A DNA stretch of 64,000 bases. Source: Rhizobium sp. SG_E_25_P2 (GTDB lineage Bacteria > Pseudomonadota > Alphaproteobacteria > Rhizobiales > Rhizobiaceae). Of the stretch, positions 15,919-29,043 are shown in pieces. The position numbers were made by a program, and so were the translations under genes. The DNA lies in NCBI RefSeq assembly GCF_029892285.1, contig NZ_JARXVM010000017.1:62001-126000 (forward strand). Direction: 5' to 3'. The notes beneath the pieces were generated by a model. It worked only from the letters and a program-made list of their open reading frames with translations, did not search any database and was not told the origin of the DNA. Numbering within the stretch: position 1 is the first letter of the stretch; each line of letters starts with the position of its first letter.

Positions 15919-16008
15919 GGATGGGTGTCCGAGTGGTTTAAGGAACCGGTCTTGAAAACCGGCGTGCGGGAAACCGTACCGTGGGTTCGAATCCCACCCC
16001 ATCCGCCA
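15919..16008 (+). tRNA. tRNA-Ser (anticodon UGA)
   Basis: The 90-base gene folds as a class II tRNA. The 7-bp acceptor stem is GGATGGG / CCCATCC with discriminator G and encoded CCA. The anticodon stem-loop CGGTCTTGAAAACCG gives the anticodon TGA. A long variable arm (about GTGCGGGAAACCGTAC) and the T-arm GTGGG-TTCGAAT-CCCAC follow. It decodes UCA and related serine codons. Confidence 0.97.
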
Positions 16009-16083
16009 GTCCCGCCGATTTTGCGCTATGTTGCGAGACAGTTTGGCAGACGCCGCCGTTTGCCATCGAATTTTGGAGCCGTC

Positions 16084-17004
16084 TTAGTCGCTCCCGATCC
16101 CCGGCAGGCGAGCAGCCTGTTCGACCAGATAGTCGATCAGCAATCGGACGCGCGCCACCTTGGCCCGGGCAGGTACGATCAGCATGTTGAGTGGTGTCGT
16201 AGGCAGCGAATGGTCGGAGAGCAGCGGCTCAAGTTCGCCGCTCGCCAGCAAATCATCGACGAGCCAGCGATGGGCCGGGCCTATACCCCGTCCAGCCCTG
16301 AAGGCTTCGCGCGCGGCGAGACCGTGATCGACACGAAGGTCGCCCTTCGCAGGGATGGCGTGAGGCGTGCCGTCTGGTCCTGTGAGCACCAGCGTTTCGC
16401 TGCCGGCGATATTCGACATGCGGATGACGTTATGGGCCATCAGCTCCACCGGTGTCTCGGGGCGACCATGCGCGGTGAGATAGGCAGGAGCCGCCACCAA
16501 CAGCCGCGCGCTTTGCCCGAGGTGATGCAGCTTCATCGAACTGTCGGTGAGAGGTCCGAGGCGCAGGGCGATATCCACGCCTTCCTTCACCAGATCAATC
16601 CGCTCGTCGGTCAGGCCGAGGTCGATGCGGATATTAGGATAGCGCGCCTGAAACGCGAAGATCAGCCGTGTGATGTGCAGCACGCCGAGCGCGGCGGTGC
16701 AAGAGACACGGATCGTCCCCGAGTGTGCGTTGCTGACATCGCGGATTTCCTCGCACGCCTGTTCGACCAGCCGGAGGATTTGGACACATTGGGAGTAATA
16801 GCGGGTGCCTTCCTCGGTTAGCGCGACACGGCGGGTCGTGCGGTTAAGTAGAGATGCGCCCACGGCCTCTTCCAGTTCGCGCAGGTGTCGCGTGATAGTA
16901 GATTGGCCTGTTCCCAATTCCCGCGCCACAGCCGACAGGTTCCCGCGCTCCGCAACGCGGATGAAGGTGCGCATTCGTTCGAGCGTGATATTAGATTGAT
17001 CCAT
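16084..17004 (-). CDS. LysR-family transcriptional regulator
   Basis: This 306-residue protein has the LysR winged helix-turn-helix at about residues 10–65 (FIRVAERGNLSAVARELG, then RHLRELEEAVGASLLNRTTRRVALTEEG) and a C-terminal effector-binding domain. It belongs to the large group that controls a divergently transcribed oxidoreductase. The quinone oxidoreductase gene starts 96 bases away on the other strand, and a LysR-type dyad lies between them. The effector is unknown; a quinone or another electrophile is a reasonable inference. Confidence 0.93.
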   Translation of the reverse strand: MDQSNITLERMRTFIRVAERGNLSAVARELGTGQSTITRHLRELEEAVGASLLNRTTRRVALTEEGTRYYSQCVQILRLVEQACEEIRDVSNAHSGTIRVSCTAALGVLHITRLIFAFQARYPNIRIDLGLTDERIDLVKEGVDIALRLGPLTDSSMKLHHLGQSARLLVAAPAYLTAHGRPETPVELMAHNVIRMSNIAGSETLVLTGPDGTPHAIPAKGDLRVDHGLAAREAFRAGRGIGPAHRWLVDDLLASGELEPLLSDHSLPTTPLNMLIVPARAKVARVRLLIDYLVEQAARLPGIGSD

Positions 17005-17018
17005 ATTTCGGCATTATC

Positions 17019-17035
17019 ATATCCATTGCCGATAT
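17019..17035. promoter_or_regulatory. LysR-type operator between divergent genes
   Basis: ATATC-N7-GATAT is a perfect dyad that contains the T-N11-A core bound by LysR proteins. An overlapping longer inverted repeat TCGGCA-N13-TGCCGA spans 17008–17032. It sits between the regulator and the quinone oxidoreductase, the usual position for an autoregulated divergent control site. Confidence 0.6.
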
Positions 17036-17099
17036 ATACCGGAATAATCGAGGCAAGGCTACCTTGGCCGCTGATGTCACTCCAGCCTTAAGGTGCTCC

Positions 17100-17891
17100 A
17101 TGAAAATTCTCCTCGTCTTCGCCCACCCCGAACCAAAATCATTGTCCGCCTCGTTGCGCGATGTTGCGGTTCACGAACTCGAAGCTGCCGGCCATGAGGT
17201 CCGCGTGTCCGATCTCTATGCGATGAACTGGAAGTCACAGATCGATCGGGCCGACTTCCCGGCGCTTGCCTCCGGAGAACGTTTGCTGCCCGTCGCAGCC
17301 TCGAAGAACGCCTTCACGACCGACACGCTGACCGACGACGTGAAGGTGGAAATTGACAAGCTGCTCTGGGCAGACACGCTGATCCTGCAATTCCCACTCT
17401 GGTGGTTCACGATGCCGGCGATTCTGAAAGGTTGGGTTGATCGAGTGTTCGCCTACGGCTTCGCCTATGGCGTCGGCGAGCACAGCGATAAGCGGTGGGG
17501 CGACCGTTACGGCGAGGGCACGCTCGCTGGCAAGCGCGCCATGCTGATCGTCGCGGCCGGCGGCTGGCAGGAGCATTACGGCCCGCGCGGCGTGAACGGC
17601 CCGATCGACGACCTTTTGTTCCCGATAAACCACGGAATTCTCTATTATCCCGGCTACAACGTGCTGCCACCCTTCGTCACCTACAGTACCGACCGCTATA
17701 ATGAAGAACGCTTCGAAGCTGCTGCACAGGACTTACGTGAACGGATGCGCACGCTGGAGACGACGGTATCCATTCCCTACCGGCATCAGAATGGCGGCGA
17801 CTATCACATTCCAACGATGGAGTTGCGCGAAGGTCTCGAAACACCGGGCGTATCGGGTTTCGCGCTGCATCTGCGCCGGGTCGCCGATTGA
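17100..17891 (+). CDS. NAD(P)H-dependent quinone oxidoreductase (flavodoxin-2 / MdaB-like)
   Basis: The enzyme is predicted to carry out two-electron reduction of quinones, avoiding semiquinone radicals. The 263-residue protein opens with the flavodoxin-like MKILLVFAHPEPKSLSASLRD, followed by the flavin-binding LILQFPLWWFTMPAILKGWVDRVF and the GGWQEHYGPRG loop, which are diagnostic for the NQO1/MdaB family. I use the ATG at 17100 behind AAGGTG; the frame extends upstream to 17064 without family homology. It is divergent from the LysR gene and probably controlled by it. Confidence 0.9.
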   Translation: MKILLVFAHPEPKSLSASLRDVAVHELEAAGHEVRVSDLYAMNWKSQIDRADFPALASGERLLPVAASKNAFTTDTLTDDVKVEIDKLLWADTLILQFPLWWFTMPAILKGWVDRVFAYGFAYGVGEHSDKRWGDRYGEGTLAGKRAMLIVAAGGWQEHYGPRGVNGPIDDLLFPINHGILYYPGYNVLPPFVTYSTDRYNEERFEAAAQDLRERMRTLETTVSIPYRHQNGGDYHIPTMELREGLETPGVSGFALHLRRVAD

Positions 17892-18169
17892 CTGAGCAAA
17901 ATGGACGCAATCGGCACAATTGGTCCCTGGACCTTCGTTATGCGAAATGTGGGAGCGGATTAGAGGGCTATAGCGTGTGTATAGTTCTCATCCTCATCTC
18001 GCGCGGCCCGCCAGCACGCTCCTGTGCATACCAGCGCTCATTGCTGCGCATGTTTCATTCGCCATGCAAAAACGCTTTTTTAAACGCCGCAAAACTCGCG
18101 TTCTCGGCTCGATGTTTTATTGTTTCATAATTTGACGCATCTCAAATTTCCAATCTGCAAATCAGCTAG

Positions 18170-18267
18170 ATTTTCAATCAGACAGGGCATGCGCCGTTCT
18201 CCTCCCGCGGCGCATGAGGGGCTGTCGGACGCGGCCGGGCGGCGGACACCGGCCGCGTCCCATTTTT
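18170..18267 (+). ncRNA. Candidate small RNA with an anti-Shine-Dalgarno CUCCUCCC loop
   Basis: Two perfect hairpins stand next to each other. The first (CATGCGCCG / CGGCGCATG, 18188–18216) exposes an 11-base loop containing CTCCTCCC (18199–18206), which is complementary to Shine-Dalgarno sequences. The second (GGACGCGGCCGG / CCGGCCGCGTCC, 18227–18260) is followed by five T residues and fits an intrinsic terminator. This layout resembles the alphaproteobacterial sRNAs with conserved CCUCCUCCC motifs (the αr14 and CcsR/cuckoo-type groups). The 5' end is estimated; an AT-rich region with TTTGAC at 18131 lies upstream. No protein gene directly precedes the terminator, which supports an independent RNA. 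Confidence 0.62.
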
Positions 18268-18304
18268 CACCGCAACGATCCGCATTCCGAACACAGGCCG
18301 TTCC

Positions 18305-18634
18305 ATGATGTCTCTTCTGGTCGCAGGCGCAAGCGCGTGTGTTGCAGCCCTTCTCTTTGTCGGCAGCGCCATCGCCGATCGCCGGCAGGAAGAGATGCGC
18401 TATGCGCGAGAGCTGGCGCTGGCGATCGGTGGCGATTATCGTTGCGGCTATGGTTTGAACATGCAAGCGGTGCGGGAGGCGATCGAACAGCGCCTCTTCT
18501 CCCTGCCATCAGCGGCGCTACACGAATTCAACACGGCGTTGGCAGAGGTCGCCTACAACACGGATAAACGGGATGCGGCGAGTTGTGACGCGCGCCGTGA
18601 ACTCGCGGCGCGACTGGGCGTCCTGGATCATTGA
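18305..18634 (+). CDS. Small predicted secreted protein, unknown function
   Basis: This 109-residue reading frame starts with a credible signal peptide (MMSLLVAGASACVAALLFVGSAIA|DRR). The mature part is about 85 residues, helical and Ala/Arg/Glu-rich, with two cysteines (YRCGYG and ASCDAR) that could form a disulfide bond in the periplasm. I do not recognise a family. There is no strong ribosome-binding site, and two adjacent ATG codons (18305 and 18308) could serve as start. It is isolated between the candidate sRNA terminator and a downstream inverted repeat. It may be real, but without homologues it stays tentative. Confidence 0.5.
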   Translation: MMSLLVAGASACVAALLFVGSAIADRRQEEMRYARELALAIGGDYRCGYGLNMQAVREAIEQRLFSLPSAALHEFNTALAEVAYNTDKRDAASCDARRELAARLGVLDH

Positions 18635-18991
18635 CATTTCACAAATTTACTATGTTTTCACTTGACAAGCCACAGGCTCTTGTCATTCGGCTTTTTTAGG
18701 CGGCATTCTTTATGGGCGGGGTGGCGCAGGCTTTGTCCCTTTTGTTTGCCAGCCAAACCCTCATGGCGACCCGGCAGCGTCCTTTCCACGAGGATTTGTG
18801 GGAAGGGCGCCGCCGGCCTCCAGACCGCGAATCAATCGTCGCGGACACCGCCACCAAAATTTTCCGTCCGCATGTATCCGGAAGCCGTTGCGCTTTGCCT
18901 GCGATGACCTACATCGGAGCGTGAGTTCGCGCCGTGGCGCGGCTCTTTCCCTGCATGCGCCTCCAGCGCGCTAACCCATCAGGACCTGTCC
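18635..18991. other. Intergenic region with one inverted repeat, no supported gene
   Basis: The region holds the dyad TGACAAG-N9-CTTGTCA (18663–18685) with six T residues at 18692–18697. This could end transcription of the 18305 gene, although the gap between stem and T-run is longer than usual. Two short open frames here (around 18662–18924) lack a start site, signal or recognisable content, and I leave them out. The GST promoter should lie here but no clear match was seen. Confidence 0.4.
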
Positions 18992-19693: not shown

Positions 19694-19733
19694 ACTGAGC
19701 CGGCCCGCAAGCAGATTTCACATATCCCAAAAG

Positions 19734-19770
19734 AAAAACCCGGGACGCGCCAACCGCGTCCCGGGTTTTT
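19734..19770. terminator. Bidirectional terminator
   Basis: A perfect 16-bp inverted repeat (AAAAACCCGGGACGCG / CGCGTCCCGGGTTTTT, loop CCAAC) lies between the convergent GST and IalB-family genes. The A- and T-runs at its two ends make it an intrinsic terminator on both strands. Confidence 0.9.
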
Positions 19771-28889: not shown

Positions 28890-29043
28890 CATAAAAGAGG
28901 CAGGGGGATCAAATCCTTGCCAAAATTCGCGGTTAAGTCTTGGGAGGATGGGATCTTAGGCGCGCTAACCCGCAGCCCCCTTAACTGGGTTGAAGATCAC
29001 GCGAAACTAGCTAAAAACAAGGCTTTAAGCCTTGTTTTTTTTT
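28890..29043 (+). ncRNA. Candidate structured small RNA gene with intrinsic terminator
   Basis: No open frame explains this stretch, but it folds extensively. Hairpin 1 (GGCA..GGAT / ATCC..TGCC) spans 28899–28921. A long arm follows with TTCGCG (28926–28931) pairing to CGCGAA (29000–29005), GATCTT (28952–28957) to AAGATC (28993–28998), and AACCC (28967–28971) to GGGTT (28987–28991). The 3' end is a perfect 11-bp stem (AAAAACAAGGC / GCCTTGTTTTT, 29013–29039) running into nine T residues, an intrinsic terminator. A plausible promoter ends near 28883, giving an RNA of about 150 bases. The class is unknown; 6S RNA or a Rhizobiales-specific sRNA are options. Confidence 0.6.

Follow-up and report, generated by a model that had tools for sequence, protein, structure and literature searches.

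A candidate single-module anti-Shine-Dalgarno small RNA in a narrow lineage of Rhizobium

Introduction

A 64,000-nucleotide (nt) stretch of the genome of Rhizobium sp. SG_E_25_P2 (contig NZ_JARXVM010000017.1, positions 62,001 to 126,000), hereafter the window, contains a predicted small RNA (sRNA) of about 91 nt at positions 18177-18267 of the plus strand. We consider it likely, with moderate confidence, that this element is a lineage-restricted, stand-alone sRNA with a single anti-Shine-Dalgarno (anti-SD) module, which would repress mRNAs in trans. The element is probably a real RNA structure under selection. In the proposed mechanism, a 5' two-tier hairpin would display UCUCCUCCC in an open loop, and a strong intrinsic terminator would end the RNA. 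The loop would pair with GGGAGGAGA-type Shine-Dalgarno (SD) sequences on mRNAs encoded at other loci of the genome, blocking ribosome binding in the manner of a single NfeR1 module or of the AbcR aSD1 hairpin. The loop itself, and the analogy with NfeR1 and AbcR as described in excerpts of the respective reports (PMC10746234, PMC8844928), suggest that repression in trans would work by occlusion of the SD. What we computed is the predicted structure, the predicted accessibility of the loop, and the selective conservation of the RNA relative to its flanks.

Results

Predicted structure of the RNA

The 5' part (18181-18226) folds into a two-tier hairpin. The arms of the inner stem, CATGCGCCG and CGGCGCATG, lie at 18188-18196 and 18208-18216, pair at 9/9 positions, and enclose 11 nt (TTCTCCTCCCG). 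They are surrounded by an outer stem (GACAG at 18181-18185 and CTGTC at 18222-18226), with a single-stranded AGGGG at 18217-18221 between the two tiers. The outer stem was absent from an earlier note on this DNA, which had been made from the sequence without database searches. The loop (18197-18207, UUCUCCUCCCG) contains the octamer CTCCTCCC at 18199-18206, as the earlier note had proposed. The octamer is predicted to be unpaired, with a probability of at least 0.91, in all three genomes compared below; a U-G pair is predicted between the two outermost bases of the loop.

The second hairpin is part of an intrinsic terminator (18227-18267). Its arms (18227-18238 and 18249-18260) form a 12-bp stem with 12/12 pairs, the loop is GCGGCGGACA (10 nt), and C-A-TTTTT follows, with the T run at 18263-18267. 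The stem is paired in all three sequences. Hence, the two adjacent perfect hairpins and the terminator with five T residues, both noticed earlier, were confirmed. A general terminator scan with a loop limit of 8 nt did not list this hairpin, the loop of which has 10 nt.

The minimum free energy of 18175-18269 was -53.4 kcal/mol (z = -4.05), and none of 200 shuffles was equally stable. The octamer is not enriched, with one occurrence in the window against 2.1 expected. A perfect stem of at least 9 bp around CTCCTCC arose once in 300 dinucleotide-shuffled windows (both strands), and one of at least 7 bp arose 17 times in the same shuffles. A coding function was considered for the RNA and rejected: the ATG at 18214 (open reading frame (ORF) 18214-18567) is lost in one of the compared genomes, that of Rhizobium sp. 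G21.

Selective conservation of the RNA

The comparison set consisted of this genome, Rhizobium sp. FKL33 (G004, locus L103), and Rhizobium sp. G21 (G002, locus L095). In the three-way alignment, pairwise identity was 93-96% in the RNA, 41-45% in the upstream DNA (18060-18140), and 53-64% in the spacer to the next gene. The downstream gene, ORF109, showed 60-68% nucleotide identity and the GST coding region beyond it 87-90%. All three genomes agreed in 85 of 93 columns of the RNA (18177-18268), in 17 of 89 columns of the upstream DNA, and in 16 of 38 columns of the spacer. The RNA is far better kept than its flanks, which argues for selection on the RNA. The octamer CTCCTCCC is invariant; the hairpin part has changes in 5 of its 47 columns, the terminator in 2 of its 34. 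Together, the predicted structure and the selective conservation in three genomes support, with moderate confidence, the earlier idea that the element is an sRNA in its own right, with its own terminator and an accessible anti-SD loop.

The consensus structure of 27 pairs in three sequences had 97.5% of its cells paired. The outer stem pairs were kept in 3/3 sequences, and 93.3% of the inner stem cells were paired. One terminator pair occurs in three states (G-C, G-U, and A-U). For the loop stem, the covariation check suggested in the earlier note gave 8 invariant pairs, one with a one-sided change, one with a broken cell only, and none covarying among 10 pairs, which, with three close sequences, speaks neither for nor against the RNA. 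Conservation of the structure mostly follows from that of the sequence, and covariation is not evidence here.

Distribution of the locus

BLAST over 101 genomes gave matches in four, and in three of them (this genome, FKL33, and G21) the match was the RNA. In the fourth (G046, locus L035), only a 39-base piece of the T run and spacer (18262-18300) was matched, which is not the RNA. A model (R1) was made from the ragged three-row alignment including the flanks, so that its scores on those three genomes are high by construction. Among 297 genomes of the family, R1 matched two, both within the genus; G21 was not among these matches and is probably outside that sample. A 19-base loop-plus-stem pattern, which in its exact form overlooks homologues with other stems, occurred in 71 stretches of the named genome collection. 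On these, R1 scored 173.3 bits at L103 (FKL33) and 172.2 bits at L095 (G21); the remaining 42 pattern rows at E up to 1, many from Streptomyces, reached at most 21.2 bits. A repeat or mobile element was rejected as an explanation, with one match in this genome and none in the plasmid collection. The GST gene has matches of 87-89% in FKL33 and G21, and the best matches in the other six genomes of the genus are at 69-76%. The whole locus seems, from these alignments, to belong to one sublineage.

Upstream region

A putative promoter or operator region precedes the RNA at 18141-18176 (plus strand), with 22/36 columns identical in the three genomes, compared with 17/89 in the DNA immediately before it. 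Within the three-way alignment, CTCAAA (18141-18146) and GCAAATCAGCTAG (18157-18169) are identical in 3/3 genomes, and these blocks may be a promoter or operator. AATC-N5-GATT forms a short inverted repeat in this genome; G21 has GGTT. According to an excerpt of the NfeR1 study, ar14/NfeR1 RNAs have a sigma-70 promoter, CTTAGAC-N17-CTATAT, with a conserved upstream stretch (PMC10746234). This string was not seen in 18097-18176. We infer transcription of the RNA and the position of its start site.

The upstream gene (17097-17891, plus strand) belongs to the Flavodoxin_2 family (Pfam PF02525) and is not at this place in FKL33 or G21. The earlier statement that no gene ends within 300 bases upstream was approximately right, since 296 nt separate the end of this ORF from hairpin 1, and 335 nt separate it from the terminator stem. 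In FKL33, the upstream gene appears from its sequence to be LysR-type, and in G21 it appears to be a different LysR-type gene. The gaps from the upstream gene to the promoter-like box are 265, 187, and 34 nt (34 nt in G21). The differing upstream genes and gaps indicate that the RNA is not the tail of one gene. The interval from the tRNA (tRNA-Ser here) to the RNA, window 15919-18176, is filled with different genes in the three genomes, which suggests a variable spot beside the tRNA.

Downstream gene ORF109

A small gene on the same strand, not mentioned in the earlier note, starts 37 nt downstream at 18305. This gene, ORF109 (18305-18634), encodes 109 amino acids and is conserved. The product, a probable secreted protein with a CGYGL motif and a probable signal peptide, has 58% amino acid identity to its FKL33 counterpart and matches no Pfam family. 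The distance from the T run to the aligned ATG is 37 nt here, 37 nt in FKL33, and 39 nt in G21. An ORF109 search gave matches in 4/297 genomes; the one in G317 looks like chance and the one in G200 like a real distant homologue. A weak homologue in another genus lies in a 3.3-kb locus (L039) without CTCCTCC. In G21, the first and main parts of the ORF109 homologue are in different frames, which could be decay or a sequencing error.

Tests for membership in known families

At gathering thresholds, the Rfam scan of the window listed ar9 and tRNA only; the ar9 sRNA (RF02343, 125.7 bits) is at 28891-29043. The earlier note had placed the candidate among the ar14 and CcsR/cuckoo-type RNAs and had proposed a covariance-model search. 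In that search, ar14 (RF02344) alone among the Rfam models matched the RNA on the plus strand with an E-value of up to 10. It ran end to end with 20.5 bits against a cut-off of 58.8, and its E-value was 0.098 in 469 bases (17892-18360). The other Rfam matches in this region at E up to 10 (ceN89, nrdJ, and Rubella_3) were chance-level and were rejected.

Five ar14 copies lie elsewhere in this genome, with 60.0-105.6 bits, and the candidate is not among these five matches. The matched stretch contains three anti-SD motifs in four copies and two in the 60.0-bit copy, L116. In all five, the terminator loop carries the motif, and the terminator loop of the candidate, GCGGCGGACA, does not. The copies L115, L116, and L117 have a further TCCTCCTCCC motif within the 80 bases that precede the Rfam match; with it, the module count may be three in L116 and four in L115 and L117. 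Excerpts of two reports describe ar14/NfeR1 as three hairpins, each with an unpaired anti-SD motif (PMC10746234, PMC7143759). The candidate has two hairpins and one motif and differs from that arrangement. The ar14 placement is not supported, and the CcsR part of it fared no better. CcsR RNAs share their transcript with a DUF1127 gene, according to the portion of the report consulted (PMC10253847). No Pfam match was found in the five neighbouring small ORFs or ORF109, and no DUF1127 in the other three neighbours.

Putative targets

The loop complement GGGAGGAG is located 4-10 nt before an ATG at 38 places in the genome, and a reversed control pattern at none. Duplex energies were calculated at 30 of the 38 sites; the candidate loop was stronger than the ar14 loop at 18 and weaker at 12, in a crude comparison of 13-base strings that include stem-closing bases. 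Ten downstream ORFs were hand-picked from the 30 for a Pfam search. Four encode substrate-binding proteins, a reported target class of NfeR1 and AbcR in the excerpts available (PMC7143759, PMC8844928). The others are a ROK regulator, a PNPOx protein, a molybdopterin enzyme, an aldehyde dehydrogenase, a GST, and one ORF without a family. This sample is an illustration, not an enrichment test, and genes of this kind may often have a strong SD. In the candidate, UU precedes the octamer and G follows it; most ar14 5' loops have UC and A at these places. From these flanking bases, we predict a preference for GGGAGGAGAA sites over GGGAGGAGGAG leaders. Action in trans and any specific target are what we infer.

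Discussion

Several observations weigh against a stand-alone, trans-acting RNA. The RNA is known from three genomes only. The loop stem has no compensatory change, and one pair in its lower half is broken in each of FKL33 and G21. Covariation was not significant, with the single compensatory pair equalled in 334/500 shuffles. A consensus scan recognised no sigma-70-type promoter upstream. When the fold is extended to 18420, the outer stem is swapped for pairs with downstream sequence; the inner hairpin and the terminator persist. As to targets, a GGGAGGAG in front of an ATG is no more than a strong SD, and counting such sites does not demonstrate targeting. RNA genes lie on the opposite strand at two or more of the 38 sites (the candidate itself and one AbcR copy), and several of the 30 precede very short frames that may not be genes. 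Since the octamer also occurs in all five ar14 copies and in one of the two ar15 copies, the candidate may have no role of its own.

As the main alternative, the RNA could be the attenuator leader of ORF109: transcripts from the same promoter would mostly end at 18267, read-through would enter ORF109, and the free RNA would be a by-product. The ORF109 region is directly downstream in 3/3 genomes, and the 37-39 nt between the T run and its ATG leave little room for a separate promoter. We nevertheless regard a leader as unlikely, if still deserving serious attention. The 12-bp terminator is paired in 3/3 sequences and persists in a single fold of 18141-18420; this fold shows no antiterminator, although no dedicated antiterminator search was made. 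The L039 locus, with its distant ORF109 homologue, has no CTCCTCC, and no GGGAGGAG precedes the ORF109 start. ORF109 also diverges fast and has split frames in G21, while the G21 RNA is 93-95% identical to the other two. A dual output is distinctly less probable: the terminated form would be a trans-acting anti-SD sRNA and the read-through product the mRNA of a fast-evolving secreted protein. If true, one terminator would set the ratio of a global translation repressor to a secreted protein. A weaker variant proposes that AGGGG (GAGGGG with the closing G), which is complementary to CCCCUC of AbcR aSD2, also binds AbcR. G21 has GUGGGG at this position, which argues against such binding. A role as a sponge for AbcR was rejected: duplex energies of the whole RNA told nothing either way, and G21 has not kept the key bases.

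A divergent or worn-down ar14/cuckoo member, with one anti-SD module left, would account for the end-to-end ar14 match. The number of motifs varies in the ar14 copies of this genome (L116 passes with two in the matched stretch), and L115 has a similar loop, UCUCCUCCCG. Against such an origin, which we hold to be rather improbable, the score is 38 bits below the cut-off, with E = 0.098 in a search space of 469 bases, the motif present in the terminator loop of 5/5 ar14 copies is missing, and the sequence is highly conserved rather than decaying. That the element is merely the transcription terminator of the upstream gene is highly improbable. The LysR-type gene of G21 does end 34 nt before the promoter-like box, and the terminator is slightly better kept than the hairpin part. 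However, the upstream genes differ in the three genomes, with gaps of 187 and 265 nt in two, and the invariant octamer and the outer stem kept in 3/3 sequences would be superfluous for a mere terminator.

Other conserved elements lie between ORF109 and the GST gene. In a box at 18635-18668, 29/34 columns are identical in the three genomes, and in a block at 18720-18826, 102/107. The block is at least as conserved as the RNA and was found in 3/61 genomes. The fold of 18690-18830 has a z of -3.0, with 2/200 shuffles equally stable, and its Rfam matches are chance-level only. The block may serve the GST gene as a leader RNA or sRNA. After the GST gene, at about 19728-19770, a short stretch that matches the related loci, and one of these in either orientation, resembles a small palindromic repeat.

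Comparison with known systems

The candidate resembles NfeR1/ar14, the cuckoo-type anti-SD sRNAs of Rhizobiales, in its CUCCUCCC hairpin loop, GC-rich terminator, and intergenic position, and it falls in a nearby length class (91 versus 123 nt). It differs in having one motif, none of it in the terminator loop, and a score far below the cut-off.

AbcR is the closest to the candidate in idea, yet ar15 (RF02345, cut-off 40 bits) had no match up to E 10 in 17892-18360. Two ar15/AbcR copies lie elsewhere in this genome, as do three suhB-family matches, two of which overlap the AbcR copies. AbcR aSD1 is described, in the part of the report consulted, as CUCCUCCC in the 5' hairpin loop (PMC8844928), and the candidate has this arrangement. 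Like the candidate, the AbcR1/AbcR2 copies of this genome fold with a two-tier 5' hairpin. The 9-mer UCUCCUCCC is common to the candidate and one of the two copies; the other reads UUCCUCCC. The aSD2 motif UUCCCCUC, located between the first and second stem-loops of AbcR, is absent from the candidate, the internal single strand of which is AGGGG. Unlike AbcR1/AbcR2, the candidate also has no middle stem-loop, and it aligns poorly with them.

The CcsR1-4 RNAs of Rhodobacter sphaeroides, with CcaF1, carry a loop motif of the anti-SD type, and the candidate is likewise an anti-SD-type sRNA of alphaproteobacteria. No DUF1127 gene like that of CcsR1-4 was found among its neighbouring ORFs. PmaR of Agrobacterium, compared by description only, is presented in an excerpt of its report as a lineage-restricted trans-sRNA that binds its targets via a C-rich loop (PMC6234868). 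The candidate shares the lineage restriction and the C-rich loop; unlike it, PmaR is described there as spoon-like, with a long stem and one loop.

Among the titles and abstract openings listed in the literature searches, none described an RNA at this locus. The principle is known, and the candidate appears to be a new, narrowly distributed example of it. If true, the anti-SD loop of ar14 and AbcR would also exist as a single-module RNA in a small lineage, which would be a useful case for asking how RNAs that share a seed apportion their targets within one genome; the effect on general knowledge would be modest. On paper the candidate would work like the ar14 and AbcR RNAs, and by test it is a member of none of these families.
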